A stretch of DNA of 64,000 bases, taken from Corynebacterium glucuronolyticum DSM 44120. Lineage in GTDB: Bacteria; Actinomycetota; Actinomycetes; Mycobacteriales; Mycobacteriaceae. The translations under genes and the position numbers were made by a program. The stretch spans positions 620,001-684,000 of the forward strand of contig NZ_CP047452.1 of assembly GCF_030440595.1 (NCBI RefSeq). Direction: 5' to 3'. This document shows positions 17,865 to 36,870 of this stretch, piece after piece. Below the pieces are notes generated by a model. It was not told the DNA's origin, made no database searches, and saw nothing but the letters and a program-made list of their open reading frames with translations. How positions within the stretch are numbered: position 1 is the stretch's first letter; every line of letters begins with the position of its first letter.

Positions 17865-18488
17865 CTAGCGATTCCACAGGCTCGATGCGTCGATCCCCAG
17901 TGAATACAGTGCCCGGCGCAGCGTGGGAATAGACAAGCCAATAACTCCGCTGGGATCCCCCTCGATCCGGTCGATGAACCAACTCCCCAGCGCCTCCAGT
18001 GTGAACGCGCCGGCGCAGGGGAGCGGTTCGCCACTGGCCGCATATGCCTCGATGTCGCGCCGGGTGGGGGAGGCGAAGTAGACCCGTGTCTCGGAGACGT
18101 CGGCAAAAGTCTTGCGTGAGGGGGAACCATCGCATTGGGGACCCGTGATGTAGTGGGCGGTGAGAAGCGTGCCTACCTTGCCGCTCTGGTTCTCCCACCG
18201 GCGGATAGCCTCCGCTTGCGTGTGGGGCTTGCCGGTCAACTGGCCGTCGATAAGCAGCATTGAATCGCAGCCGACCGTCACGTCTGCGGGGTAAACCGGA
18301 GCCACTGTCTCGCACTTCGCCTGAGCCAACGCCGCCACCCGCTCGCGTGGCGGAGCGGTCTCCAACCGGGCGAGGATCGTCTCCTCATCCACATCGGCGG
18401 GATGGACAATAGGTTCCACCCCCGCGTTGTGGAGCAGCATGAGACGGGAAGCAGAACCGGAAGCCAAAACCAAGCGCATGCCCGCCAT
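17865..18488 (-). CDS. maf: Maf-family nucleotide pyrophosphatase
   Basis: A 207-residue Maf/YhdE protein: these enzymes hydrolyse non-canonical nucleoside triphosphates to monophosphates and are linked to septum control. The signature LVLASGSASRLMLL is at the N-terminus, the phosphate/metal-binding TVGCDSMLLIDGQLTGKP in the middle, and GAFTLEALGSWFIDRIEGD near the end. An inner ATG at 18479 (MRLVLASGS) is as likely as 18488. The usual ASxSxxR appears intact as ASGSASR. It is followed closely by the DUF3151 gene. Confidence 0.9.
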   Translation of the reverse strand: MAGMRLVLASGSASRLMLLHNAGVEPIVHPADVDEETILARLETAPPRERVAALAQAKCETVAPVYPADVTVGCDSMLLIDGQLTGKPHTQAEAIRRWENQSGKVGTLLTAHYITGPQCDGSPSRKTFADVSETRVYFASPTRRDIEAYAASGEPLPCAGAFTLEALGSWFIDRIEGDPSGVIGLSIPTLRRALYSLGIDASSLWNR

Positions 18489-23042: not shown

Positions 23043-23834
23043 ATGACTAACCGCGAGCCCCTCAACCGCGACGAACTCCAGCGGCGCTTGGTAGACACGA
23101 ACTTGTACCAGCAGCTCACCGTCTTGGATCACACCGGCTCCACCAACGCCGACCTCCTCCAAGCCGCTGCGGACGGTGCCCCCACCTTCACCGCAGAGAT
23201 CGCCGAGTTCCAGGACGCCGGCCGCGGTCGCCGTGGCCGCGCCTGGGTCACACCTGCCCATTCCCAGGTCACCTTCTCCGTTCTCGTTCGTCCGCGCACC
23301 CTCGACCACTTCGGCTCACTGTCTCTTATGGCTGGGCTTGCGCTTATCGACGCTCTGTCGCCACTGCTCGGCTCTCGTGTCGCCCTCAAGTGGCCGAACG
23401 ACGTCCTCGTCAGTGGCAACAAGATCTGTGGCATCCTCGGCGAAGCACAAGCGCTTGCCACCAACCACCCCGAGGTTGTCCTCGGTTGTGGGCTGAACCA
23501 TTCGCTGACGCGCGAGGAACTGCCCGTCGACAACGCCACCTCCCTCGCGCTGGAAGACATCGATGTCGACCGCACCGAACTGACCATCTCCGTCCTCACC
23601 GCCATGCGCAACCGGCTCGGCGCCTGGGCCACCGGTGATGTCCACATGGACGACTACCGCGCCGTCTGTTCCACCATCGGCAAGGACATCCGCGTCATGC
23701 GCCCCGGCACCGACGATCTGCTTGGTAGGGGAGAAGACGTCACCGATGAAGGCTTCCTCGTCGTCCGCGATCGCTCCGGCGAGCGCCACGAACTGTCTGC
23801 CGGCGAGGTCCACCACGTCCGCCCACTGGAGTAA
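23043..23834 (+). CDS. birA: Biotin--[acetyl-CoA-carboxylase] ligase
   Basis: A 263-residue monofunctional biotin protein ligase that activates biotin with ATP and attaches it to BCCP lysines of Pyc and AccBC. The biotinyl-AMP loop is AGRGRRGRAW (about residues 60-69). The KWPNDVLVSGNKICGILGEA stretch (about 117-136) is the biotin/ATP core, and GCGLNHS follows. No N-terminal helix-turn-helix is present, so it is not the repressor type. It is divergent from accD1, as expected for a functional link. Two copies of the GCTTGGTAG word lie in it (23086, 23720), coded as R-L-V-D and L-L-G-R. Confidence 0.95.
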   Translation: MTNREPLNRDELQRRLVDTNLYQQLTVLDHTGSTNADLLQAAADGAPTFTAEIAEFQDAGRGRRGRAWVTPAHSQVTFSVLVRPRTLDHFGSLSLMAGLALIDALSPLLGSRVALKWPNDVLVSGNKICGILGEAQALATNHPEVVLGCGLNHSLTREELPVDNATSLALEDIDVDRTELTISVLTAMRNRLGAWATGDVHMDDYRAVCSTIGKDIRVMRPGTDDLLGRGEDVTDEGFLVVRDRSGERHELSAGEVHHVRPLE

Positions 23835-23837
23835 TTC

Positions 23838-24296
23838 GTGCAGCTGGAGCCCAACGAGCTGATCCTCGCCGACGTCACCACCACCTTCCGACACCTCACC
23901 ATGCCAGCCATCCGGCTGCTGCTGGCCACCGGCGTGTGTTCCATCGGAGTGGGAGTTTTCGACCGTCCTGCAGGCGCAGAACTCGCCGGTGTTGCCCTCC
24001 CACCCGAGTGGCGGTCACTCGTCCTCGCCATCTGGGCGGTGTGGGTGCTCATTGGATTTGTGTGGCCCGTGCTTATGTCGCGGACCGCCCGCACGACAAT
24101 CACTACCAAGCGGATCATCACCCGCAAGCCGGGGCTCTTCGTTCGCCCGCAGTCGATTTTCTACGAGGAAATCGACGCTATCCACCGCCGCTCCTCCTCC
24201 CTCGTCATTTCCACCTACACATCCCGACGCCCCGTCGTCATCGACAACGTGCCCAAAACCAAGCAGCTTGTCCAGCTCATCGAGGACACCTACTAG
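23838..24296 (+). CDS. PH-domain membrane protein
   Basis: A 152-residue protein with two transmembrane segments (about residues 22-42 and 60-85) followed by a bacterial PH (YdbT/YdbS-like) domain, seen in TARTTITTKRIITRKPGLF and the basic turn that follows. The GTG at 23838 is three bases after the birA stop, so the two genes are likely co-transcribed, with purK immediately after. The function is unknown, and PH-domain membrane proteins are often linked to envelope stress. It contains one copy of the clustered word (24103), encoded as ACC-AAG-CGG. Confidence 0.75.
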   Translation: MQLEPNELILADVTTTFRHLTMPAIRLLLATGVCSIGVGVFDRPAGAELAGVALPPEWRSLVLAIWAVWVLIGFVWPVLMSRTARTTITTKRIITRKPGLFVRPQSIFYEEIDAIHRRSSSLVISTYTSRRPVVIDNVPKTKQLVQLIEDTY

Positions 24297-24306
24297 GCTT
24301 AAATGG

Positions 24307-25455
24307 GTGAGCACTAACGATCCCCACGCACCAGGCATGCCGATCGTCACCGTAATCGGCGACGGTCAGCTCGCCCGCATGATGCAAACAGAAGCAACAG
24401 AACTCGGCCTTACAATACGGCTGCTGGCAGGTGCCACCGACTCCTCAGCGGCCCAGGTCACCCCCGACGTCACCATCGGCGACTATACCGTCCTTGAGGA
24501 CGTCCAGGCCGTAACCACAGGTGCCGATGCCGTCACCTTCGACCACGAGCACGTCCCAGGCGACATCCTCCACACGCTCATCGACGCCGGCATCAACGTC
24601 CAACCCCAGCCCGACGCCCTCCTCTACGCCCAGGACAAACTGGAAATGCGCAAGAAGATGCAGGAATTGGGGCTGCCGGTGCCGTGGTTCACGGATGTCA
24701 CCGACCCCTCCCGCCTACCAAGCGGAAAACCGATCTGCCTGAAGGCGATCCGCGGCGGCTACGACGGCCACGGTGTCTGGTTCACCGACGATGCCCCCAC
24801 CCTCGCCGCCGAGCTGATGGACAAGGGTGTCAGCCTCATGGCAGAGGACAAGGTAGAGCTCAAGCGCGAACTATCGATCCTCTCCGCCCGCCGCCCCTCC
24901 GGGGACATCGCCCAGTGGGACATCACCGAAACCATCCAGACCGACGGCATCTGCGTGGAGGCTCTCGCCCCCGCGCCGGGGCTCACGGAAGAACAGGCAG
25001 AGACGATTCGCCACATTGGACGCACCGTCGCAGAAAAGCTCGGTGTCACCGGTGTCCTCGCCGTCGAATTGTTCGAGACCACCGACGGAGAGATCCTCAT
25101 CAACGAGCTCGCCATGCGCCCCCACAACACCGGCCACTGGACGCAAGACGGCTCGGTCACCAGCCAATTTGAGCAGCACCTCCGCGCCGTCCTCGACCTC
25201 CCCCTCGGCTCCACAGCCCTCACCGCCCCCGCCACCTGCATGGTTAACACCCTCGGAGGCGAGTCCGGGCAGGACATTCCCGCCGCCATGGCGCAGGTGT
25301 GGAAAGACTACCCCGAGGCCAAGGTCCACTGGTACGGCAAGTCCTACCGCGCCGGCCGGAAACTCGGCCACGTCAACGTCTCCGGCGCCGATGCCGACAC
25401 CGTACGTGACCGCGCCCGCGCCGCCGCCCGGATTATAGTGGGGAGCCATGAATAA
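24307..25455 (+). CDS. purK: N5-carboxyaminoimidazole ribonucleotide synthase
   Basis: PurK uses ATP and bicarbonate to carboxylate aminoimidazole ribonucleotide in purine synthesis. The approximately 382-residue ATP-grasp protein has the AIR-binding N-terminus [21 protein letters not shown], the ATP loop [11 protein letters not shown] and the metal/ATP motif [15 protein letters not shown]. The GTG at 24307 ([15 protein letters not shown]) matches the start of corynebacterial PurK; an inner ATG at 24337 is possible. It overlaps purE by eight bases. A copy of the clustered word at 24715 is encoded as CGC-CTA-CCA-AGC, which uses the rare CTA codon. Confidence 0.94.
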
Positions 25456-25945
25456 CTGCTTGGTAGGAATCATCATGGGGTCCGACTCCGACTGGGATAC
25501 CGTCAAACCCGCCGCCGACATCCTTGACGAGTTCAATGTCGCGTACGAAGTAGGCGTCGTCTCGGCCCACCGCACCCCCGACAAGATGCTCGACTACGCC
25601 CGCACGGCCCACACTCGTGGCATCAAGGTGATCATCGCCTGCGCTGGAGGTGCCGCCCACCTGCCGGGCATGACGGCCGCCGCTACGCCGCTCCCTGTCA
25701 TTGGCATTCCCCGTGCGCTGAAGGATCTCGACGGCCTGGATTCGCTCCTCTCGATCGTCCAGATGCCCTCCGGTGTCCCCACCGCCACCGTTTCCATCGG
25801 CGGGGCCAAGAATGCTGGTCTGCTCGCCGTGCGGATGCTGGGGACCGGTGACCCACAACTCGTCGAAAAGATGTCCGCCTACCAAGCGCAGATGGCTGCC
25901 GAGGTGGAGGAGAAGGACCGCCGGCTCCAGGAGCGTCTCTCCTAG
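25448..25945 (+). CDS. purE: N5-carboxyaminoimidazole ribonucleotide mutase
   Basis: A 165-residue class-I PurE that moves the carboxyl group of N5-CAIR to C4, completing the purine step started by PurK. The N-terminal [16 protein letters not shown] and the central [15 protein letters not shown] are the CAIR-binding site, and [16 protein letters not shown] completes the active site. It overlaps purK by eight bases, so translation is coupled. Two copies of the clustered word are inside: at 25458, right after the start (encoding Cys-Leu-Val with TTG and GTA), and at 25879. Confidence 0.96.
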
Positions 25946-25946
25946 C

Positions 25947-26399
25947 GTGCGCCCGCTCGTCGTCCTCGGCTCCAGGCTTATCGACGGCCTACCAGGCGCC
26001 ACCCTCACCCGCCGCCTGGCAGCTGCCCGTGAGCACATCACCCCCGCCACCACCGTTGTCGTCACCGGCCACAACGGCGAAGCCGAGGCCATGCGCGATT
26101 GGCTCGTAGACCACGGTGTCGACGCGTCCCACATCATCGTGGAACCTGAAGCCCGTTCCACCAACGAGAATTTGGAGAACGCCTACCATGCGCTTGGTAG
26201 GGCTACGCGTTTCGACGTGGTGACAAGTGACTTCCATGCACCCCGCGTCCGCATGTGGGCCTGGCACCACCAGTTCGATGTGAGTGTCATCACTGCGCCG
26301 ACCCCTGCCGATCGGCGTTTGTTTATCTACCTACGCGAGCTAGCTGCGATTCCGCACTCGGCGCTCCGAATCCTGTGGCGCAGAATCCACAGGCCGTAG
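25947..26399 (+). CDS. DUF218/YdcF-family protein
   Basis: A 150-residue protein of the DUF218 (YdcF/SanA/ElyC) family, an alpha/beta fold associated with envelope functions. Family motifs are VVLGSRLIDG at the N-terminus, EARSTNENLENAYHAL in the middle and VVTSDFHAPRVRMW near the end. No transmembrane segment is predicted. The GTG at 25947 follows the purE stop at once; the longer upstream open frame is not supported. It contains a near-perfect 18-bp dyad of the clustered word (26183-26200). Confidence 0.8.
   Translation: MRPLVVLGSRLIDGLPGATLTRRLAAAREHITPATTVVVTGHNGEAEAMRDWLVDHGVDASHIIVEPEARSTNENLENAYHALGRATRFDVVTSDFHAPRVRMWAWHHQFDVSVITAPTPADRRLFIYLRELAAIPHSALRILWRRIHRP
26183..26200. repeat. 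Head-to-head dyad of the clustered word
   Basis: CTACCATGC immediately abuts GCTTGGTAG. The reverse complement of the second is CTACCAAGC, so the pair forms an 18-bp dyad with one mismatch, inside the DUF218 coding sequence. Confidence 0.7.
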
Positions 26400-26415
26400 C
26401 TAACCTGCTGCTGAG

Positions 26416-26424
26416 TTATCCACA
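26416..26424 (+). promoter_or_regulatory. Perfect DnaA-box match
   Basis: TTATCCACA occurs between the DUF218 stop and the HNH gene, within the word cluster. A single nonamer can occur by chance and no box cluster is seen, so no origin is claimed. Confidence 0.3.
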
Positions 26425-26434
26425 GATCGTGCGC

Positions 26435-26463
26435 CTACCATGCGCGGAGCGTGCGCGTGGTAG
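26435..26463. promoter_or_regulatory. Inverted repeat of word variants upstream of the HNH gene
   Basis: CTACCATGCGC and GCGCGTGGTAG form an 11-bp dyad with one mismatch and a 7-base spacer, ending 14 bases before the HNH start codon. Both arms are single-base variants of the clustered 9-base word. It could be an operator or an RNA hairpin in the HNH leader. Confidence 0.55.
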
Positions 26464-26477
26464 TTAGAGTTCGAGGC

Positions 26478-27632
26478 ATGACACACGCACTCGACTCCCT
26501 CGCCTCCGCGCTGACGGGCCCGGGCATACTCATGGAGGCCCTGGCTCTCGGCTCGTCGGTCGCCCAACGGGTCGAGAAGCTTGTCGACGATTATCATCTT
26601 TCCCCTTCTTTCGCTCGCCGGCTCTGTAACGGTGCCACCAACTGGGTCGACTACGACCTTGTCGCCGACCCACGCCCCAACGAGCTCCCCACCGAGTACC
26701 TCATTCTCATCTCCAAGGGGATGAACAACCTGGAACCGGAAGAGCGGGAAACTTACCGCAAGGAAATGCTCAGCTACGCCGTCGACAAGCAACCAAACGT
26801 GCTCGAGATGAAAAACGCGTGCGCGGAGCGGGGGCGCGCCCACCTACCACGCAACACCCAGCCGTCACTGACCGTCGGCCCGCGTGCGGACGCAACCGGG
26901 CTCAAGCACGCCCGACTTGCGCTCAAAGCCCAGCAAATGGACGAATTCATCAGCGTCTGCAACTACCTCGCGCCCGACGATTCGTCGATGTCGACGTCTG
27001 CTCGGTGGGCGCAGGGCCTCCGCAAGCTCGTTGCGTTGTGGAAGGAAGGCACCTACGACGACGTCACCCTCACCCGCATCTGGGACCGCACCCTTACCCC
27101 CTGCTTCATCATCAACGCCGACGACGCCACCTACCAAGGAGACGGCAAGTTCGCGACCACCGACGGTAACCTCATCGATGGCGATGACCTCGCTAACTCC
27201 CGGCTCGCACCCTTCGGCTTCGTCTCGATCTACGACAAGAACGGCAACATCGGTGTCCACTACCAACTAGAAAACGAGCGCTTCGCCAGCAAAGAGCTCC
27301 GCTCCGCCCTCGCCTGCGACCAGATCTTCTGTGCACACCCCGGCTGCTACCGGCCGGCAGTCTACAGCCAAATGCACCACAGCAAGGCCCACTACCTCGG
27401 CGGACTCACCGACGCGATCACCCTCCTGCCCCTGTGCAAGTACCACAACGGGCGAAACGACGATGACCCCGGAAAACCCAAAAACGGCCGCCACGAGCGC
27501 GACCCCGTCACCGGCGAGGCCGGATTCAAACCACCCGGATCCGACGAACTCCACTTCAACCGCAGTGAACTCCGCGACCGCTGTGGCCGCGGCATCAACA
27601 TCCGCCAACGCGGTATCTTCCGCGAGCACTAA
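26478..27632 (+). CDS. HNH endonuclease domain protein (13E12/DUF222-like)
   Basis: A 384-residue protein with a long helical N-terminal part and a C-terminal HNH nuclease domain. The zinc-type module reads CAHPGCYRPAVYSQMHHSKA, followed by HYLGGLTDAITLLPLCKYHN, which contains the HH pair and the final His-Asn. The tail RDRCGRGINIRQRG is basic. Such proteins are abundant in actinobacteria, often in multiple copies, and most are uncharacterised. The ATG at 26478 has a GAGG upstream; the frame is open to 26451. It lies in the middle of the word cluster, directly after an inverted repeat of that word, and carries the variants at 26844 and 27131. Confidence 0.85.
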   Translation: MTHALDSLASALTGPGILMEALALGSSVAQRVEKLVDDYHLSPSFARRLCNGATNWVDYDLVADPRPNELPTEYLILISKGMNNLEPEERETYRKEMLSYAVDKQPNVLEMKNACAERGRAHLPRNTQPSLTVGPRADATGLKHARLALKAQQMDEFISVCNYLAPDDSSMSTSARWAQGLRKLVALWKEGTYDDVTLTRIWDRTLTPCFIINADDATYQGDGKFATTDGNLIDGDDLANSRLAPFGFVSIYDKNGNIGVHYQLENERFASKELRSALACDQIFCAHPGCYRPAVYSQMHHSKAHYLGGLTDAITLLPLCKYHNGRNDDDPGKPKNGRHERDPVTGEAGFKPPGSDELHFNRSELRDRCGRGINIRQRGIFREH

Positions 27633-27639
27633 ACCGAAA

Positions 27640-27667
27640 AGCCCACCAGGAGCACTCCTGATGGGCT
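27640..27667. terminator. Bidirectional terminator between HNH gene and tusG
   Basis: AGCCCACCAGGAG pairs with CTCCTGATGGGCT (one mismatch). T/A-rich flanks on both sides fit termination of both convergent genes. Confidence 0.75.
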
Positions 27668-27683
27668 ATTCGACGTGCCTCCG

Positions 27684-28505
27684 TCAGCCCTTCACACCGC
27701 CTGCGGTCAGTCCCGCCACGATGCGACGCTGGAAGACGAGCACCATCACTACCAAGGGGACCGTCACCAACGTGCCAGCAGCCATCACGGCGGCGTAGGG
27801 GTACTCAAAGGCGCTCGGACCCGAGAACCTGGCGATCGCCACCGTCACAGGTTCCGTCGCTGTTGTCGATAACTGCTTCGCCAACATGAACTCATTCCAC
27901 GTCGCAATGAACGCCAAGATAGCCGTGGTAAATAGCGCTGGTGCCGCCAAAGGCAGCAGCACTTTCCGGAAGGCCGTAAAGCGGCTCGCACCGTCCACAC
28001 GAGCTGCCTCCTCCAACTCCCACGGAAGCTGCTTAAAGAAGCTAATTAACGTATACACCGTCAGTGGCAGCGCAAACGAAATATTCGGCACAATGAGCGC
28101 CTGGTAGGTGCCAATCCACCCAATGTTTGAAAACAGCTGAAACAGCGGTGTCACAAGAGCGATACCAGGGAACATCGAGGCCGCCAGAATGATGGCCGTA
28201 ACGATTCCCTTGCCCCTAAAATTCAGTCGGGCAAGTGCGTAGCCAGCCAACACCCCTACCAAGACTGCTAACGCAGTGGTGGCGAGGGAAATCAAGAGCG
28301 AGTTGCCGATGGCTCGAAGGAAGTTATTCCCCTTGTCCGTTGCCAGAGCATCTTGAAAATTCTCTAGCGTGACGTGAGTGAAGAATGGCGTTGTGTCGAA
28401 TGTGTGCTTGGAGTCGCGAAACGCGGTGACAACCATCCAATAAAACGGTGCCAGAGTCCACAATATGATGACGGCAAATCCGAAATAAGTGCGTGCTGCT
28501 TTCAT
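27684..28505 (-). CDS. tusG: ABC sugar importer permease (TusG-like)
   Basis: A 273-residue inner-membrane permease of the MalG class with six predicted transmembrane segments, the first at about residues 7-30. The EAA loop that docks the ATPase is WELEEAARVDGASRFTAFRK. The gene overlaps tusF by four bases, and together with tusE and tusK it forms a complete sugar importer. By gene order this matches the trehalose uptake system (tus) of C. glutamicum, so trehalose is the likely substrate; that is inferred from synteny. Two 8-base cores of the clustered word (27749, 28256) fall in it. Confidence 0.88.
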   Translation of the reverse strand: MKAARTYFGFAVIILWTLAPFYWMVVTAFRDSKHTFDTTPFFTHVTLENFQDALATDKGNNFLRAIGNSLLISLATTALAVLVGVLAGYALARLNFRGKGIVTAIILAASMFPGIALVTPLFQLFSNIGWIGTYQALIVPNISFALPLTVYTLISFFKQLPWELEEAARVDGASRFTAFRKVLLPLAAPALFTTAILAFIATWNEFMLAKQLSTTATEPVTVAIARFSGPSAFEYPYAAVMAAGTLVTVPLVVMVLVFQRRIVAGLTAGGVKG

Positions 28506-29530
28506 CGTTGGGTCTCCTTGGTAGTGATCATGTTCGCATCGATATGAATCGGTTTACCAGGCACGGGCTTATCACTGCTTGGTAGGGGGGTTGTCTTTTC
28601 CCTCTTCGGCGCCACATCCGCCCCCAAGAACCGAATCATGATAAAGGCGACGGCGAAGATGAGCAGGAAGATGAGTGTGGATAGGGCGCTTGCTGAGTTG
28701 AAGTGGCCCTGTCGGAGGTCTTCGACGACGAGTTGTGAGATGGTGGCGGTGGGGGAGTTGGAGCTGGAGGAGATCATGATGACTGGTAGGTCGTACATGC
28801 GTAGTGCGTCGAGGGTGCGGAAGAGGATGGCGACCATGAGCGCGGGTTTGACCAGTGGGAGGGTGATGTTGGTGAAGATTTGGAAGCGTCCGGCTCCGTC
28901 GACGCGTGCGGCTTCGTAGATTTCTTTGTCGATCATTTGTAGGCCGGCGAGGATGAGGAGTGCCATGAAAGGGGTTGTTTTCCAGACGTCGGCGATGATG
29001 ACGGCGGTGCGGGCAGCCCAGGGGTCGGTGGTCCATGATGTTTCCCTACCAAGCAGGGAGTTGATGAGGCCGTTGTCGGAGAAGAGGAATTGCCAGAGTT
29101 TGGCGGTGACGGCGGTGGGGATGGCCCAGGGGACGAGCACGGCGGCACGGAGGAGGCCGCGGCCGGGGAATTCTTTGTTCATGACGGTCGCCATCCATAG
29201 TCCGAGGAGGGTTTCGAGGGCGACGGTGACGACGGCGAAGAAGAGGGTGATGCGGACGGCGGGCCAGAAGTCGGTGGCGATGGTGCCTGGTGGGCATGTT
29301 GTCACGACGCCGGAAGGCGACATGCATCGTTGTTGGAGCCAGTAAAGGTAGTGATCGGCGCCGGCGAAGCCGCCTTCGACGAAGAGTCCGGTCTCGGGGT
29401 CGAGGTGCTTGTCTTGTTGGAAGGACAGGTAGATGGCCCGGAGGATGGGGTAGCCGATGACGATGCCGAGGACGATGAGGGTGGGAGCGATGAGCGCCCA
29501 CGCTGTCCGGGTTTGTTTGGCTTGTTGCAC
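28502..29530 (-). CDS. tusF: ABC sugar importer permease (TusF-like)
   Basis: A 342-residue MalF-class permease with about six transmembrane segments; the N-terminal one is WALIAPTLIVLGIVIGYPIL. The EAA loop is EIYEAARVDGAGRFQIFTN. The insertion around residues 40-70 with Cys residues is probably periplasm-facing. The GTG at 29530 has a purine-rich AAAGGGAAA ribosome-binding site directly next to a copy of the clustered word (29543). It is translationally coupled to tusG. Two further exact-word copies (28577, 29046) are inside the gene. Confidence 0.88.
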   Translation of the reverse strand: MQQAKQTRTAWALIAPTLIVLGIVIGYPILRAIYLSFQQDKHLDPETGLFVEGGFAGADHYLYWLQQRCMSPSGVVTTCPPGTIATDFWPAVRITLFFAVVTVALETLLGLWMATVMNKEFPGRGLLRAAVLVPWAIPTAVTAKLWQFLFSDNGLINSLLGRETSWTTDPWAARTAVIIADVWKTTPFMALLILAGLQMIDKEIYEAARVDGAGRFQIFTNITLPLVKPALMVAILFRTLDALRMYDLPVIMISSSSNSPTATISQLVVEDLRQGHFNSASALSTLIFLLIFAVAFIMIRFLGADVAPKREKTTPLPSSDKPVPGKPIHIDANMITTKETQR

Positions 29531-29583
29531 GCGTTTCCCTTTCCTTGGTAGGGGTTTGGTTGTTAGTTTAGGGGACTACGGTT

Positions 29584-30453
29584 GTGGGTATGTGCAAGTC
29601 TGTAGCTCTTGTTGTTGAAGGTGGTGGCATGCGGGCGAGTTACACGGCCCGCTTTTTCGAGCGTCTCATTTCCAGTGGCATTGAGGTGGGCTGGGCTGGC
29701 GGCATTTCTGCTGGTGCGTCCCAGGTTCTCAACTATCTCTCGGGCGACGAGTTCCGCGCTCGTGTGAGCTTTTCGACGCTCCTTTCCTCCCGTCGCGTCG
29801 GTGGTCTGTCTCCCCTCCTGCGTGGTAGGGGGCTTTTCGACGGCCAGTACATCTACCAAGACATCGCCCAGCCCGACGGCGCCCTCCCCTTCGACTTCGA
29901 GGCCTTTTTCGCCCATCCCGCCGAGGTGTGCATCCAGGCGGTGCGCGCGGATACCGGGGAGACGGTGACGTGGAATCGCGCCGATCTGTCTACCAAGCAT
30001 TCGGTCATGCTCGCAGCCCGTGCTTCGGCGACAATGCCTGGTGTGATGAAGATTCCGTTCATCGATGGAATTCCCTATGTCGACGGTGCTGTCGGCGATA
30101 CCGGTGGCATTCCTATTGAGCCGGCGCTTGGTAGGGGAAGGTTTGCCATCGTCCTCACCCGCCCCCGTGGCTTCCGTCGCACGCCTCCCGAGCACCCGGA
30201 GGTGTTGCGGGCGTTGTTGCGGAAGTATCCGGCGGTGGTGGATTTGATGATGACGCGGCATGAGCGGTACAACGCGTCGCTAGAGCTCGTCGACAAGCTT
30301 GAGCAAGAGGGGAAGGCGAAGGTTTTTTATCCCGAGGGGCCGTTGGTGAGTAATAAGGAGCGCGATGGTGCGAAGATCATGGCCTCCTACCAAGCGGGTC
30401 GGGAGCAGGTCGATCGGGAGTGGCCGGAATGGCTCGATTTCTTTTATAGCTAA
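29584..30453 (+). CDS. Patatin-like phospholipase
   Basis: A 289-residue patatin-family lipid acyl hydrolase of the cytosolic RssA/YjjU type. The oxyanion loop is EGGGMRASYTA, the nucleophile serine elbow is GISAGASQ, and the catalytic Asp is in YVDGAVGDTGG. The GTG at 29584 fits a purine-rich stretch at 29569-29575; an ATG at 29590 is the alternative. It is inserted, on the opposite strand, between tusE and tusF, splitting the transporter into two minus-strand units. The clustered word is densest here: 29853, 29990, 30126 and 30387 all fall in this gene. Confidence 0.85.
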   Translation: MGMCKSVALVVEGGGMRASYTARFFERLISSGIEVGWAGGISAGASQVLNYLSGDEFRARVSFSTLLSSRRVGGLSPLLRGRGLFDGQYIYQDIAQPDGALPFDFEAFFAHPAEVCIQAVRADTGETVTWNRADLSTKHSVMLAARASATMPGVMKIPFIDGIPYVDGAVGDTGGIPIEPALGRGRFAIVLTRPRGFRRTPPEHPEVLRALLRKYPAVVDLMMTRHERYNASLELVDKLEQEGKAKVFYPEGPLVSNKERDGAKIMASYQAGREQVDREWPEWLDFFYS

Positions 30454-30458
30454 AAAAT

Positions 30459-30489
30459 ACCGCTGCTTGGTAGGCAGCGGTTTTTTTTA
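30459..30489. terminator. Terminator with clustered word in its loop
   Basis: ACCGCTGC pairs with GCAGCGGT, and the loop plus the stem edge spell GCTTGGTAG (30465-30473). A T8 run follows on the plus strand and A6 precedes it, so it can stop both the patatin gene and tusE. Confidence 0.9.
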
Positions 30490-30496
30490 GTTCGCC

Positions 30497-31759
30497 TTAC
30501 TTCGCAGCCTGCGAAATTGCGGCTGCCATGTCCTTGGTGGTGTCATCGACGGACTTGCCTGCGGTGATGGCTGCGTAGGTGTTGTCCTGGATGGCCTTGG
30601 AGATGGCGGTGTAGAAGGGGCTGACGGGTCGCGGCTTGGCGTTTTCGAGGGATTCCTTCAGCGCGGGGAGGTAGGGGTACTTCTCCACGAGTGTGGCGTC
30701 TTCGTAGATGGATGCGAGGACGGGTGGGAAGGAGTTGTCGGCAAAGGAGGCCTGGTTGTCTTCGTTGATGATGAATTCGATGAAGTCGCGGGCGGTTGCC
30801 TTGTGCTTGGAGTTGACGTTGATGCCGTTGTTGTATCCGCCGAGGGTGGATACGCCGGTGCCGTCCTTGGCTACCAAGGGGGTGACTTCGAAGTTGATGC
30901 CGGCTTCCTTGGCGTTGGTGTACATGTAGGGCCAGTTGACGGCGTAGGCGGTCTTGCCTTCGGTGAAGGCGAGGTTGGTTTCTTCCTCGGTGGCGGAGGT
31001 GGAGCCCTTGGCGATGGTGCCGTCGGCGTAGCCGTCGACGAGTGCCTGGATGCCTTCCTTGGCTTGGTCGGTTTCGACGGCGGGTGCTTCGGAGTCGTCG
31101 AGGACGCTGCCACCCCAGCCGTTAATGAAGTTGGTGGTGTTTACGGTGAGGCCCTCGTACTGCTTGAGTTGGAGGGTGAGGCAGTCTTCGGACAGTCCCT
31201 GGCAACTGTCGGCGAGTTCTTTCCAGTTGGCCGGTGCATCGGTGACGAGGTCGGTGTTGCGGAAAAGGAGCTGGCCGTTGGTGTTTTGTGGCAGGGCGTA
31301 GAGGGTTCCTTGGTAGGTGGCGGATTCGACGGTGGCGGGCAGGAGGCCGCTGGTGTCGACGGCGAGGTCGCCTTCCAGGGGCGCGAGGTACTGGTTGGCG
31401 GCGAAGTCGGCCGTCCAGATGACGTCGAGGGCCATGACGTCGTAGTCGCTGGAGCCTGCTTGGAGGGATTGGACGAGGGTTTCGCGCTGGGCGTCGGCCT
31501 CGCCGGCGAGTTCCTTGAGCGTTACCTGCTCATCGGGGTGGTCTGCGTTCCACTTTTCGATGACAGGCTGGAGCTTGTCGGTGTCGTTCTTGCCCATCGC
31601 GAAGGTGATCGGCCCGCGGTCGGCGGCACCTGCGGTTGCTTCGCTCGTCGACGAACTGTCGGCACTGGAGGGTGTCGATGTTTCGGAAGAGCAGCCTGCT
31701 AGTGCCAGTGCTGCTGCGGTGCACACAGCACCGATGACGGTCAAACGCTTGGTAGTCAC
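30497..31759 (-). CDS. tusE: Sugar-binding lipoprotein of the ABC importer (TusE-like)
   Basis: A 420-residue solute-binding protein exported with a lipobox, LALAGCSSE (Cys at about residue 23), followed by a Ser/Thr-rich linker. The family-1 sugar-binding fold starts around PITFAMGKNDTD, and later segments such as NNGINVNSKHKATARDFIEF and FPPVLASIYED are typical. It delivers the sugar, likely trehalose by synteny, to TusF/TusG. The GTG start at 31759 has an AAGGAAGG ribosome-binding site. Codons 2-5 contain the clustered word (31747). An inverted repeat (31785-31798) lies just upstream. Confidence 0.9.
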   Translation of the reverse strand: MTTKRLTVIGAVCTAAALALAGCSSETSTPSSADSSSTSEATAGAADRGPITFAMGKNDTDKLQPVIEKWNADHPDEQVTLKELAGEADAQRETLVQSLQAGSSDYDVMALDVIWTADFAANQYLAPLEGDLAVDTSGLLPATVESATYQGTLYALPQNTNGQLLFRNTDLVTDAPANWKELADSCQGLSEDCLTLQLKQYEGLTVNTTNFINGWGGSVLDDSEAPAVETDQAKEGIQALVDGYADGTIAKGSTSATEEETNLAFTEGKTAYAVNWPYMYTNAKEAGINFEVTPLVAKDGTGVSTLGGYNNGINVNSKHKATARDFIEFIINEDNQASFADNSFPPVLASIYEDATLVEKYPYLPALKESLENAKPRPVSPFYTAISKAIQDNTYAAITAGKSVDDTTKDMAAAISQAAK

Positions 31760-31784
31760 GTGAACCTTCCTTTTTGATTAACAA

Positions 31785-31798
31785 CTGGTTAGAACCAG
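31785..31798. promoter_or_regulatory. Palindrome upstream of tusE
   Basis: CTGGTT-AG-AACCAG lies 26 bases before the tusE start, flanked by GATTAAC direct repeats and by oppositely oriented copies of the clustered word at 31747 and 31804. It is a candidate repressor operator for sugar control. Confidence 0.45.
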
Positions 31799-31835
31799 AT
31801 TAACTACCAAGCAACCGAAAATACAGGAAGTTGCC

Positions 31836-32879
<1,044 letters not shown>

Positions 32880-32888
32880 ACGTTTACC

Positions 32889-33488
32889 CTACCAAGCGGT
32901 GGCGCGTTCCACGTCCGCAATGTGGGCGAATCGTTCCTCGCTTGCCTCGCCGCGGACGATGACGATGGAACCGCCGGTGGCCAGCTGTTCGAGCGCCTGC
33001 GCGCAGCTGTTCTCCGATGCCCGGACGATGCGCTTGGTAGGGGAGCCCTCGCGGGTCAGTGAAGGCGTTGGCTCGGGGAAATCGTCAGGGTACATGCGCA
33101 CGGTGGTGGCGAAGTCGAGCGCGCCGGGTGGCAGGGCAGAATCGGGGAGCGGGGCTCCCAGCGGGTCGTCTCCCACGATGATCTGGGTGGGGGCATCTGA
33201 TTGCTTGTCGACGCCCAGGAGCGCGACCTCCTCGTCTCCGCGGGGCTCACCGTAGGTGATGCCGGCGGCGATGGCGCCGAGTGCGATGACAATTTCCTGC
33301 CAGTCGTGGGGAACATCGAGGGCGATGGCATCGCCGGGGGCAAGGTCGCATTCGTCGCGGAGCATCCCGGCCACTTTCGCGGCCCAGTTGGAGAGGGTGA
33401 CGGCGGAAAACTCCACTCGACTACCACGCGCCTCGTTGTAGACGGTGACGCGGGGCTCGGTCGGGGTGAGGTGAGAAAGTAACTCCAT
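32889..33488 (-). CDS. TIGR03089 family protein
   Basis: A 199-residue soluble protein of the actinobacterial TIGR03089 family, which resembles a truncated acyl/AMP-ligase N-domain: YNEARGSRVEFSAVTLSNWA and DAIALDVPHDWQEIVIALGAI fit the first subdomain of such enzymes. The later catalytic part is missing, so an enzymatic role is doubtful. The ATG at 33488 follows the lcpA stop by five bases; a GTG at 33506 would overlap it. The stop codon is supplied by the clustered word, GCT-TGG-TAG (32889-32897), and another copy is at 33032. Confidence 0.8.
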   Translation of the reverse strand: MELLSHLTPTEPRVTVYNEARGSRVEFSAVTLSNWAAKVAGMLRDECDLAPGDAIALDVPHDWQEIVIALGAIAAGITYGEPRGDEEVALLGVDKQSDAPTQIIVGDDPLGAPLPDSALPPGALDFATTVRMYPDDFPEPTPSLTREGSPTKRIVRASENSCAQALEQLATGGSIVIVRGEASEERFAHIADVERATAW

Positions 33489-33493
33489 TGGCG

Positions 33494-35053
33494 CTAGTTT
33501 ACGCACTGCGGACGGTTGCCCTCCGCGGTGATTGTCGGTGATAAGGAATCCTCGACGGCTTCACCAGGTTGGCCCACAACATCGGTACCCGTGTCCTGTT
33601 CCTCGAAAGCATTGGTTGACTGCGGGCCGACGTAATCACCTGCGGTGACAACGACGACGGAGCCTGCATCGAGGGTGGGGGAGGTCGTAATCGGCAGGTT
33701 GCCCAGCTTTTCGGCGATCTCCTTGGCTGCCGGATCGTCGGCAGTAGGAGCGACAACCTGCGACGTAAAGTACAAGCCTTCTTGCGCGTTGGTGACTGTA
33801 GTGACGTGGTAGTTTTCGTCGCGAAGCCACCCGCCGACGGCGCCGGCAAGCCCGGCGACCTGGGAGGCATTGAGGACAGTTACGTTCACATCGGAGGTCA
33901 CGGGGGCGGCGTTTTCCCCGGCGTGCGGGTTCGGGTTGTCCTTCGTACCGAGAAGGGATTCGAAGAACCGCTTCACCTCATCCGGATCCACCGTGATGAT
34001 GGATTCGCCGTAGTCGCCGACACCGTCGACGGAGGTGACGGGAATCGTATCGAAGCGAACGTTGCCGCCAGCGAGGTTTTGCAACTGGGTGGCGAAGCTG
34101 ATGATGTCCCAGTCCTTATCGATGATCACCGAACGACGAGCGGCCTCCGCAAGCTCCGTCAGCTTCGACGGATTGGTCAGCGTGTTGGAGGAGAGAACCT
34201 TCTGCACGAGAGAGGCCATGAACGCCTGCTGGCGCACAATTCGGTCGAGGTCACCGCGGGGCAGTCCGTGGCGCTGGCGAACGAAAGCGAGGGCCTGTGG
34301 GCCACCGAGAGTTTGGTACCCGGCGGTGAAATCAGCCCCGGAGTACTCGTCGTAGGTGGCCTCGTTGAGACACACGTCGACGCCGCCGACGGCATCGGTG
34401 AACAGGACGAAGCCCAACAGGCCGATCTCTGCATAGTGATCGACGGTGATCCCCGTAAGGTTGGAAACCGCCTGGATAAGCCCGCGACGCCCAGCGTCCT
34501 TGCCCTCCGATTCGATGTATGTTTCATCGGTACGACCCTCCCCGCGCAGCTCCATCTCTCGCTCGTCCTTGTGCGCCTTGTACACGCCATTGATCTTCAT
34601 ATTCCCGTGTTCGGGATCGTGGATGTACGTATCGCGAGGCAAGGAGATTGCCGTGGCAGAGGATCCGTCGTTGGGGACACGGATGAGCATGATCGTGTCC
34701 GTGTTGTCGTTTTCTTCGTCACCGGCGTGGAGCATGTCGATCTCCTCCGGTGTCAGCCGGTTGCCCTGCGCATCGGAGCGGGAGTCGGATCCGACCAGGA
34801 GGATATCCGTCGCGCCGTCCTTGGCATCGCCGTGCTTAATTCCTCCGCCACCGCCGAGCTCTAGGTTGCCGGTTCCTGTAACCTCTGCGCCGATCCTGCC
34901 CACGGAGGCGTATCCCAATCCGGAAAATGTTAGGGCGAGTGCGCTCACGCCGGCGACGACGCCCTTCACCAGACGGGAACCTTTCTGCTGCGTGCGGGGG
35001 GTCGACCGTGGCGCGGGCTGGATATTTCGGACCAGTCGGGAGCGATTAGACAC
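33494..35053 (-). CDS. lcpA: LytR-CpsA-Psr family cell-wall glycopolymer ligase
   Basis: A 519-residue LCP protein that attaches arabinogalactan to peptidoglycan in mycolate-containing actinobacteria. An N-terminal cytoplasmic basic part is followed by one transmembrane helix (about residues 30-52). The LCP core contains VGSDSRSDAQGNRL, RVPNDGSSATAISLPRDTYI and FVRQRHGLPRGDLDRIVRQQ. The C-terminal LytR_C domain (VNVTVLNASQVAGLAGAVG) follows. It is divergent from rmlD, 69 bases apart. The word cluster has no copy in this 1.56-kb gene although it flanks it on both sides. Confidence 0.92.
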   Translation of the reverse strand: MSNRSRLVRNIQPAPRSTPRTQQKGSRLVKGVVAGVSALALTFSGLGYASVGRIGAEVTGTGNLELGGGGGIKHGDAKDGATDILLVGSDSRSDAQGNRLTPEEIDMLHAGDEENDNTDTIMLIRVPNDGSSATAISLPRDTYIHDPEHGNMKINGVYKAHKDEREMELRGEGRTDETYIESEGKDAGRRGLIQAVSNLTGITVDHYAEIGLLGFVLFTDAVGGVDVCLNEATYDEYSGADFTAGYQTLGGPQALAFVRQRHGLPRGDLDRIVRQQAFMASLVQKVLSSNTLTNPSKLTELAEAARRSVIIDKDWDIISFATQLQNLAGGNVRFDTIPVTSVDGVGDYGESIITVDPDEVKRFFESLLGTKDNPNPHAGENAAPVTSDVNVTVLNASQVAGLAGAVGGWLRDENYHVTTVTNAQEGLYFTSQVVAPTADDPAAKEIAEKLGNLPITTSPTLDAGSVVVVTAGDYVGPQSTNAFEEQDTGTDVVGQPGEAVEDSLSPTITAEGNRPQCVN

Positions 35054-35122
35054 GGCCTTCGCGAACCTCCAATAAAGTGGGCAGTAATAATAGAACCTAA
35101 ATTTTACAACGGGAAAGGTCTC

Positions 35123-35986
35123 ATGGAAATTGCAGTCCTGGGTGAGGGTGGCCAGTTAGGCACCGCGATGCAGCTCACCAACCCCGGTTTCACCCTCCGC
35201 AAGCTTGGTAGGCGAGATGTGGACCTCGTCCAGCTTGCCGCAGGTGACCGCGCAGCTACCCGCGCCGCGAAAGACGCCGTGAGCGGGATTGGGTGCGTGG
35301 TGAACTGTGCGGCACGAACGGACGTGGACAAGCAAGAAACCGATCCCGAGGGGGCAGATGCCGTCAACCACCGTGGGGTGGCGCGGCTGGCAGAACTCAC
35401 CCGCGCCCGTTTCATTCACGTTTCCACCGACTACGTCTTCGGTTCGGGAGCACCCCGCCGGCCACTGACTCCCGCAGATGCCACCGATCCAGACACCGTC
35501 TATGGTGCCAGTAAACTGGCAGGAGAAAAGGAGCTCATCGGCAGGAAAGATACGCTGATTGCGCGGACGGCGTGGCTGTTTAGTGGCGACCGCCTACCAA
35601 GCAAAAAAGACTTCGTCTCTACGATGCTGCGGCTTGCGCGGGCGGGGAAACCCGCGCGTGTTGTCGACGACCAGGCGGGGAGCCCCACCTTTGCCTTTGA
35701 CCTGGCTACAGGGCTGTGGGAAGCCGTGAATTTGGAGGCGACGGGCATCGTGCACGCGGTGGGGCGGGGGCAGGCGACGTGGTACGAGGTAGCCTGCGCC
35801 ACCTACCAAGCGGCCGGGGCGGATCCGGACCTTGTTCAGCCCTGTACGAGCGAGGAATTTCCGCAGGTTGCCAGGCGGCCGTCGTGGAGCGTCATGGATA
35901 CCTCATCCTGGGAACTTGCTGGGTTTACGCCATTTCCGGAGTGGCGAAGCGGTGTCGAGCGGGCGGTAACAGGTAGGATTCTGTGA
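35123..35986 (+). CDS. rmlD: dTDP-4-dehydrorhamnose reductase
   Basis: A 287-residue short-chain dehydrogenase that makes dTDP-L-rhamnose, the donor for the arabinogalactan linker. The Rossmann motif is GEGGQLGTAM at the N-terminus, and the catalytic Tyr-Lys pair is in YGASKLAGEKELI, after TDYVFGSG. It overlaps wbbL, the rhamnosyltransferase that uses the product, by four bases, which makes a functional operon. Three copies of the clustered word lie in the gene (35203, 35594, 35803). Confidence 0.92.
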   Translation: MEIAVLGEGGQLGTAMQLTNPGFTLRKLGRRDVDLVQLAAGDRAATRAAKDAVSGIGCVVNCAARTDVDKQETDPEGADAVNHRGVARLAELTRARFIHVSTDYVFGSGAPRRPLTPADATDPDTVYGASKLAGEKELIGRKDTLIARTAWLFSGDRLPSKKDFVSTMLRLARAGKPARVVDDQAGSPTFAFDLATGLWEAVNLEATGIVHAVGRGQATWYEVACATYQAAGADPDLVQPCTSEEFPQVARRPSWSVMDTSSWELAGFTPFPEWRSGVERAVTGRIL

Positions 35987-36870
35987 CCGTGAAGCCAATT
36001 GCCGTCATTACTGTTACCTACTCCCCAGGCGAGTACCTGGGGAGGTTTGTTGATTCGTTGGCGCGCGCAACCACACGCGGGACGTACACCGTGCTTGCGG
36101 ATAACGGCTCGACAGACGGGGTCCCGGAGGACACCGCAGCAACCCATCCGGCAGTGGAATTCCTCCCTACCGGTGGAAATGTGGGTTATGGAACCGCCAT
36201 TAATATTGCCGTCACCTGCTTGGTAGATAAGCGGGAAAAAGGCGAGGTCGACGACGAATATTTCATCATCTCCAATCCGGACGTAGAGTTTGGCGAGGGG
36301 TCCATCGATACGCTCATCGAGTGCGCGTCGCGCTGGCCCGATGCAGCCTGCGTCGGCCCGCTCATCTTGGAGGCCGACGGCAGCCCGTACCCGTCGGCCC
36401 GCGCAGTACCGACGATTACCAATGGCATTGGGCACGCACTCTTCAGTGCAATATGGCCTTCCAACCCGTGGACGACCGCCTACCGCCATGCTTCCGATAT
36501 GTCGACGGAACGTCCAGCTGGCTGGCTGTCCGGGTCATGTCTGCTGGTTCGTTGGGATGCATTCGAGGCCATCGGTGGGTTTGACGAGCGCTACTTCATG
36601 TACATGGAGGATGTGGATCTGGGTGACCGGTTCACTCGCGCGGGTTATAAGAACGTACTGTGCCCCGAGGCAAAGATTAGCCACGCGGTTGGGCACGCGG
36701 CAGGCAAACATCCGGAGAAGATGCTGCCTGCTCACCATGACTCGGCGTACCGGTTCCAAGCGGATCGTCATCCCGGGGTGGCTGCGCTGCCTCTGCGGGT
36801 TGGTCTGTGGCTTGGACTCAAGGTTCGCTCGGCGGTTGCTGTGGCGTGTTCGCGCCTGAAGCGGAAATAA
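35983..36870 (+). CDS. wbbL: Rhamnosyltransferase of the arabinogalactan linker (WbbL-like)
   Basis: A 295-residue GT2 glycosyltransferase. It should transfer rhamnose from dTDP-rhamnose to the GlcNAc-lipid carrier, the linker step between peptidoglycan and arabinogalactan. The donor-binding VTYSPGEYL lies at the N-terminus, NPDVEF fills the DxD role, and DERYFMYMEDVDLGDRFTRA is the conserved C-terminal family motif. The GTG start is 3 bases before the rmlD stop. It is followed after 22 bases by manC. The last copy of the word cluster is at 36218. Confidence 0.9.
   Translation: MTVKPIAVITVTYSPGEYLGRFVDSLARATTRGTYTVLADNGSTDGVPEDTAATHPAVEFLPTGGNVGYGTAINIAVTCLVDKREKGEVDDEYFIISNPDVEFGEGSIDTLIECASRWPDAACVGPLILEADGSPYPSARAVPTITNGIGHALFSAIWPSNPWTTAYRHASDMSTERPAGWLSGSCLLVRWDAFEAIGGFDERYFMYMEDVDLGDRFTRAGYKNVLCPEAKISHAVGHAAGKHPEKMLPAHHDSAYRFQADRHPGVAALPLRVGLWLGLKVRSAVAVACSRLKRK

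Follow-up and report, generated by a model that had tools for sequence, protein, structure and literature searches.

Short DNA words cluster around some HNH-family genes in Corynebacterium glucuronolyticum and related species

Free-standing homing endonucleases of phages act on DNA that lacks their gene, at one or a few sites. Intronless genes of this kind include SegF and SegG of T4, named in the reference list of PMC12724721, and the HNH genes of lactococcal Skunavirus, treated in passages of PMC12724721. In this work a stretch of 64,000 nucleotides from Corynebacterium glucuronolyticum DSM 44120 (the window; positions 620001-684000 of genome G000, a single contig, C1, of 2,866,769 bp) was analyzed, in which a short DNA word, GCTTGGTAG, is clustered around a gene of the HNH-endonuclease family. 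Like the phage genes, as those passages present them, this is a free-standing nuclease gene, with HNH as in the lactococcal case, and the logic proposed for it is mobility with transfer of flanking DNA. Unlike them, 5 to 44 copies of a short word surround the gene on its own chromosome, mostly conserved together with it. Also comparable is the actinobacterial HNH family DUF222/REP13E12 (PF02720), which passages of PMC10589994 list as a repeat family. It has an HNH domain and many copies per genome, and one of 20 aligned relatives of the window protein matched PF02720. However, the window protein itself gave no match to PF02720 or PF01844 at a threshold of E 0.01, and no word clusters appeared in the papers on that family among the matches listed. 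HNH genes ringed by their own words were not described in the titles and abstracts of open papers among the matches listed, with subscription papers mostly outside this coverage.

Other systems share the use of a short word. DNA uptake sequences of Neisseria and Haemophilus are short words in both orientations, inside and outside genes, dispersed over the genome and unlinked to their receptor. The words described here are likewise short, oriented both ways, found in and out of genes and maintained copy by copy, but they are local to one gene rather than dispersed genome-wide. Chi and KOPS are short asymmetric words read by a DNA enzyme; the present words have no polarity and are local, and the original prediction had been right to set them apart from such motifs. 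ParB and Noc, which carry a CTPase domain, act at parS and NBS sites, and the N-terminal domain of the HNH protein may weakly resemble their DNA-binding domains in structure. In contrast to ParB and Noc, the HNH domain stands where the CTPase would be, and the words are about the size of a half-site and occur in tens around the gene itself.

The 9-mer GCTTGGTAG was found 22 times in the window, with 21 copies between 23086 and 36226 (11 plus, 10 minus), and the 8-mer CTTGGTAG 32 times, with 30 copies in the cluster and two outside (16183 and 18958). The counts in 13.1 kb, the two outlying 8-mers and the balanced orientation of the original prediction were all reproduced by this recount. Elsewhere, CTTGGTAG has two copies in the remaining 50.7 kb of the window and seven in 400 kb of other stretches, four of the seven in the second cluster. 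Over the whole chromosome, where a count had been proposed as a check, exact GCTTGGTAG is not evenly dense, since 21 of its 35 copies lie in the cluster (a reversed-word control gave 36 genome-wide), and no copy was found 20-100 kb away from the HNH gene. The Poisson P for at least 21 copies in 13.15 kb at the outside rate was 2e-45. The spacing of the words is random (coefficient of variation 0.89, P 0.32), and their polarity shows no bias by side of the HNH gene. Open reading frames (ORFs), which in our calls take up 97% of the cluster stretch, contain 27 of the 30 words (13 sense, 14 antisense) in all six phases, and one word crosses a stop codon; with most words inside ORFs, a promoter motif was correctly dismissed before.

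Copies of an insertion element or of a miniature inverted-repeat transposable element would share sequence beyond the word. Here no such sequence was found except single preferred bases at -2, -1, +1 and +3, and among the 24 word copies of the best 10-kb segment 23 differ in their surrounding sequence; the distinct flanks bear out the earlier statement that this is not a transposon. The full site is wider than the word, Y-S-C-T-T-G-G-T-A-G-G-n-R, with a purine at +3 in 28 of 30 copies and a pyrimidine at -2 in 27 of 30. Position 2 of the 8-mer is relaxed, and nine further sites with other bases there were counted (1.6 expected); therefore about 39 sites are present in all. The comparison set consisted of 80 relatives' loci, some of them short, and the dense word was found at only one, L071, from a genome labelled C. 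glucuronolyticum (the sister genome). L071 is 85.6% identical to the window in DNA, and its binding protein is 95% identical. The cluster, the HNH gene and the words are as follows.

23086..36226, no strand: extent of the word cluster, 30 CTTGGTAG, 21 of these GCTTGGTAG
26451..27632, plus: HNH-endonuclease-family gene (393 amino acids, P0001), proposed owner of the word, from family matches, named homologs and conserved residues
23087..23094, plus: word CTTGGTAG, CCTGGTAG in L071
23721..23728, plus: word, shared with L071
24103..24110, minus: word, shared with L071
24715..24722, minus: word, shared with L071
25459..25466, plus: word, shared with L071
25879..25886, minus: word, shared with L071
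26193..26200, plus: word, shared with L071
27131..27138, minus: word within the HNH gene, not shared with L071
27749..27756, minus: word, shared with L071
28256..28263, minus: word, shared with L071
28517..28524, plus: word, shared with L071
28578..28585, plus: word, offset in L071 by 3 alignment columns
29046..29053, minus: word, shared with L071
29544..29551, plus: word, intergenic, shared with L071
29853..29860, minus: word, CCTGGTAG in L071
29990..29997, minus: word, shared with L071
30127..30134, plus: word, shared with L071
30387..30394, minus: word, shared with L071
30466..30473, plus: word in the loop of a terminator-like hairpin (judged by eye from the sequence), shared with L071
30871..30878, minus: word, not shared with L071
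31309..31316, plus: word, shared with L071
31748..31755, plus: word, shared with L071
31804..31811, minus: word, intergenic, not shared with L071
32024..32031, minus: word, CCTGGTAG in L071
32889..32896, minus: word crossing the stop codon of the TIGR03089 gene, shared with L071
33033..33040, plus: word, shared with L071
35204..35211, plus: word, shared with L071
35594..35601, minus: word, shared with L071
35803..35810, minus: word, shared with L071
36219..36226, plus: word, shared with L071

The words of the window and of L071 were compared. At the aligned position, 23 of the 30 window words are shared (24 with a small shift), while any 8-mer is identical at a rate of 0.335 (P 1.6e-6). In three of its six lost words L071 reads CCTGGTAG, a tolerated change, and where only one sister genome has a word, the other differs mostly by substitutions, not gaps. 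The sister genome has orthologs of all five close HNH genes of the window's genome and a sixth, which is a broken remnant in the window's genome. Where both HNH genes are intact, the sister's words were shared in 23 of 26, 5 of 10, 7 of 11 and 5 of 7 cases; at the remnant of the sixth gene, 3 of 17 were shared (background 0.306). The word is better conserved where the gene is intact. L071 is also the only one of the 80 loci with a full-length HNH match. Partial matches of 84-139 amino acids were found in L019, L026, L027 and L028, the last near the same position. The original prediction had named the loss of the word in close relatives with the same gene order as a refutation; the word is indeed lost at 79 of the 80 loci, where the 8-mer has 0-3 copies, which rules out that other species share the word at this position, yet no full-length HNH match was found in these 79. 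Clustering of the same word elsewhere in other genomes was also rejected, as G004, G005 and G007, among the matches listed, have 25-36 scattered copies.

Two homologs of the HNH protein bear the name HNH endonuclease signature motif containing protein. In 20 aligned sequences C294 is invariant and C299, H309-H310, C329, H332 and N333 are nearly so, and by these residues the window protein has the HNH sequence motif with its Cys/His metal knuckle, the sequence mark of the superfamily. PF01844 was matched at E 0.01 or better by 8 of the 20 members, the window protein not among them. A first structure model was poor (predicted local distance difference test score, pLDDT, 56). In the window's genome the protein has 22 matches at E 0.001. 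Five of these are close and full-length (E 1e-40 or better), 15 are more distant, and an intermediate match and a fragment make up the rest. The fragment, of 150 amino acids at 2037943-2038395 of C1, is possibly another remnant. The 15 distant copies lie at loci of C1 such as 217337-218476 and 2580144-2581274, and the C-termini of those listed are closely similar. Close full-length proteins (E 1e-40 or better) were found in only 2 of 242 Corynebacterium genomes.

A scan for local words, counting words with distinct contexts, took in 877 kb, a sample picked in part for its nearness to HNH genes, with about 70% of the genome outside it. Three strong clusters of dispersed words were found, each at a close HNH paralog, with CTTGGTAG at 646451, TCTTGGTA at 1814889 and TCTTATTGGG at 1836901. 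Their scores were 78.0, 20.3 and 29.0, compared with 15.0 for the best of 60 partly overlapping control windows. Genes 1814889 and 1836901 are only 20 kb apart, and the words of each are not mixed. TCTTGGTA and TCTTATTGG recur at the sister orthologs, and CTTGGTAG at the sister ortholog of the window gene. When both species were pooled, a fourth cluster emerged, with the word CTTCATGA (12 copies vs 1.2) and, at 2076810 and its ortholog, GCTTCATGAT. At the sister's sixth HNH gene the word is CCTTC(A/G)GG, found 17 times within 11.6 kb and 7 times over the remaining 46.8 kb of the contig. Among ORFs of at least 80 amino acids, the HNH gene is the sole one common to the six HNH regions compared. 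A downstream shift of the words by 2.5-3 kb, apparent in the three clusters of this genome, failed to hold in other species. Separately, the scan met an array resembling clustered regularly interspaced short palindromic repeats (CRISPR) at about 197-212 kb of C1 (L125 and neighbours), with about 75 near-identical repeats seen as k-mers alone.

More distant homologs were then compared across the genus. A family profile at E 1e-25 found relatives in 61 of 242 genomes, and 20 loci in 13 genomes, most of them high on the profile list, were set against 56 control loci. Nine of the 20 surpass the best control (14.6), and L193 (14.1) and L196 (14.0), which are below it, do exceed the background of their own genomes. 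The words were TCTGCACA (24 copies), CTAGGAGG (44), GTGGGGAA (16), CTCCTAAC (12-23), CTAGGAGA (15-20) and CATGGGGA (12), with balanced orientation (12 and 12 in L195; 22 and 22 in L204). L198, L200 and L203 are orthologous and count as one, likewise L205, L206 and largely L204; with three orthologous loci on one word and three on another, as judged from the pairs that were compared, the nine loci amount to about five independent cases. Away from HNH loci the words are few in the background of these genomes, and all four stretches scoring above 18 adjoin an HNH locus. As side observations, at L219, L240 and L241 either the word clusters continue into the neighbourhood of some HNH loci (24 copies of CTAGGAGG in 20 kb) or that neighbourhood holds additional HNH copies. 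In L198 the CTCCTAACT/CTCCTAAC words are often paired in inverted orientation at a distance of 19 bp, as in a possible hairpin repeat.

In genome G066, the HNH locus has 24 word copies, compared with 0-2 per 20 kb in seven other stretches, and the density drops with distance from the gene, being 2.8 per kb in the nearest 2.5 kb and 0.02 per kb more than 100 kb away. Its word TGTGCAGAA has 72 copies (reversed control 1), 14 of them within 2.5 kb of the gene and 22 within 10 kb. In genome G135, four HNH copies are alike (83-93% DNA identity) over about 1.15-1.26 kb only, and their flanks are unrelated; judged from these alignments the G135 gene appears free-standing and mobile, as homing endonuclease genes are. 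GTCTGGG surrounds all four copies, with 14, 14, 11 and 21 occurrences vs 3, 3, 4 and 6 per 20 kb in four other stretches; it was chosen at the fourth locus (L193), and the other three served as the test. Moreover, 27 of the 130 copies of GTCTGGGC in G135 lie in the four HNH stretches (79.6 kb; 4.6 expected). Genome G053 has two HNH genes at non-orthologous loci, with CGTGCGGA and CGTGGGGA. Protein identity correlates with word similarity (r 0.74, 16 entries; 0.53, P 1e-4, after three rows were dropped), where the words are of our own choice and the orthologous pair L204 and L205 is still in the reduced set.

The word and the HNH gene go together, as most close paralogs have a word of their own, orthologs have the same word, four unrelated loci with similar gene copies have the same word, and little is shared where the gene is broken. 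The original prediction proposed binding sites for a protein that marks a chromosomal domain. The binding-site part of it fits the conservation of the words as DNA (23 of 30 shared, background 0.34) and the flanking base preferences, which resemble a protein site; a remote protein is not supported, as the word instead tracks the HNH gene inside the cluster. We lean towards the reading that the GCTTGGTAG cluster rings an HNH-family gene, that several related HNH genes each have a different word around them, and that the HNH protein recognises the word and favours inheritance of word-bearing DNA. From the weak ParB/Noc-like match of the N-terminal part and the presence of the HNH domain, the N-terminal helical domain is predicted to bind the word and the C-terminal HNH domain to cut or nick DNA. 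In exchanges of DNA between cells or between copies of the chromosome, word-bearing alleles would prevail in recombination owing to the HNH protein. Each word arising within a recombination tract of the gene would then be kept, and the tract would take the gene with it. On this view the cluster would record the local drive of a selfish gene, accumulated by point substitutions once the gene had arrived. We infer that biased recombination or transfer of word-bearing DNA is linked to the HNH gene. A broader proposal, about which we are more doubtful, is that mobile Corynebacterium HNH nuclease genes form a new class of selfish genes, which make tens of their own 8-13 bp words accumulate in nearby host genes as a private recombination or transfer platform, and that the genome-wide word GCTTATCGACG and its dialects may be the same process in unlinked form.

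A number of results weigh against this reading. Eleven of the 20 distant HNH loci are not above the controls, and background stretches that do not adjoin HNH loci reach 17.5. In L205 and L206 the words are centred about 4 kb off the gene, in G213 the adjoining stretch equals the HNH stretch in word count, and the longer AGTCTGGG of G135 exceeds the background (0-3) at a single locus, with 8 copies as against 0-3 at the others. In the window's genome, no local word is common to the 15 more distant HNH copies, where only GC-rich words stood out; gene 2351704 and its ortholog gave no local word above the controls, and the score of CCTTCGGG by itself, 14.6, does not surpass the best control. Conservation in the second cluster is weak (P 0.035 and 0.097), and the binomial background used for conservation is not matched for codon context. 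Decay at the remnant locus is incomplete, because five words are left in this genome, three of them shared (P 0.17), and 8 of 12 of this genome's copies of the shorter CTTC(A/G)GG are shared (P 0.025). The ParB/Noc resemblance of the N-terminal domain is a match below the tool's safe level. A nuclease cutting its own words would be expected to harm its host; natural DNA transfer is presumed here. Finally, the words have no polarity relative to the gene, where nick-driven transfer might predict it.

Other explanations were also considered. The HNH protein and its words might form a nucleoprotein domain at the locus, to the host's advantage (silencing, a loop, segregation or sensing of DNA entry), with the words kept by ordinary selection. 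We consider this unlikely: tens of redundant sites, each kept, would be hard for weak host selection to maintain, gene and words are missing from 79 of the 80 relatives' loci, similar genes at unrelated loci bear the same word, and most words are not shared where one gene is broken. With many redundant words each retained, a gene-linked, distance-tied bias acting copy by copy would explain the data better than host benefit. Somewhat less likely again is a classical free-standing homing endonuclease, for which the words would be cleavage targets, and word-bearing chromosomes without the gene would be cut and repaired from gene-bearing DNA. The HNH domain and the similar gene copies at unrelated loci fit it, and passages of PMC12724721 describe free-standing homing genes of phages that transfer neighbouring genes. 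However, the gene's own chromosome has all the words and would be cut, given that in each cluster found the word, if a cleavage target, surrounds the HNH gene on its own chromosome, and targets should disappear, yet the words accumulate and stay conserved where the gene is present.

The words could alternatively protect, if the HNH nuclease degraded or nicked DNA near its own gene and the word halted it, as Chi tames RecBCD. The better retention of the words beside an intact gene agrees with this, and so does their position close to it. We nevertheless hold it to be improbable, as no reason is known why the action of a nuclease should be largely confined to the surroundings of its own gene, and Chi-like words are expected to be polar, which these are not. 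It is more improbable still that the HNH protein writes the words near its gene, by targeted mutation or microhomology-templated copying and without selection: the flanks have no templated extension past a few preferred bases, and 23 of 30 words shared vs 0.34 points to maintenance, even if the same word around similar gene copies at unrelated loci would be expected from such writing. We give almost no weight to a cluster unrelated to the HNH gene, co-located by chance or composition. The 11 of 20 distant loci without a word above controls speak for it, and the words at paralogs and orthologs, the conservation, the distant loci, the own-genome background and the G135 copies, taken together, speak against it.

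If the preferred account of word-bearing DNA favoured by the HNH protein is true, one gene reshapes ten or more kb of host sequence, housekeeping genes included, substitution by substitution. A readable code would then pair each protein with its DNA word and provide a large natural set for learning DNA recognition. It would also offer a testable molecular drive in bacteria, a possible explanation of genome-wide dispersed words and, for a large gene family annotated merely as HNH endonuclease, a function open to testing.

The gene order of the stretch is birA, purK, purE, DUF218, the HNH-family gene, two ABC permeases, patatin, binding protein, ATPase, TIGR03089, LCP, rmlD and glycosyltransferase. 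The core genes are old neighbours, with birA/purK/purE at 56-59 of the 80 loci, the permeases at 78-80 and LCP at 28. One further gene was considered as a possible owner of the word.

29584..30453, plus: patatin-like gene between two sugar ABC transporter genes, found at 1 of 80 loci (the sister genome)

It was ruled out, and a role of this gene in the system is unlikely, because it has no match in the other clusters compared. Searches of the window with Rfam (gathering scores) and for tRNA found nothing. A plasmid search of the window matched 113 records, and the best 20 of the 113 all lie within the ATPase gene.

A second word, GCTTATCGACG, was considered as another local cluster and rejected on account of its genome-wide distribution. 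It is not closer to the 15 distant HNH genes than expected (9 within 10 kb vs 9.3), and its count is weakly related to that of HNH candidates (Spearman 0.22, P 0.049, in 81 listed of 242 genomes), a relation that is not relied on here. In G066, TGTGCAGAA is above chance also far from the HNH gene, with 31 copies beyond 100 kb, and may link local and genome-wide words. Dialect-like variants of GCTTATCGACG, namely GCTTGTCGATGCC and CTnACGATGCCACC, were seen at a few loci. GCTTATCGACG itself has 84 copies in the window's genome, those in the window at 18245, 23342, 25976, 57219 and 58057. Among the matches listed, it is dispersed and strand-balanced in 234 of 242 Corynebacterium genomes, with up to 782 copies and a reversed control of 0-6.

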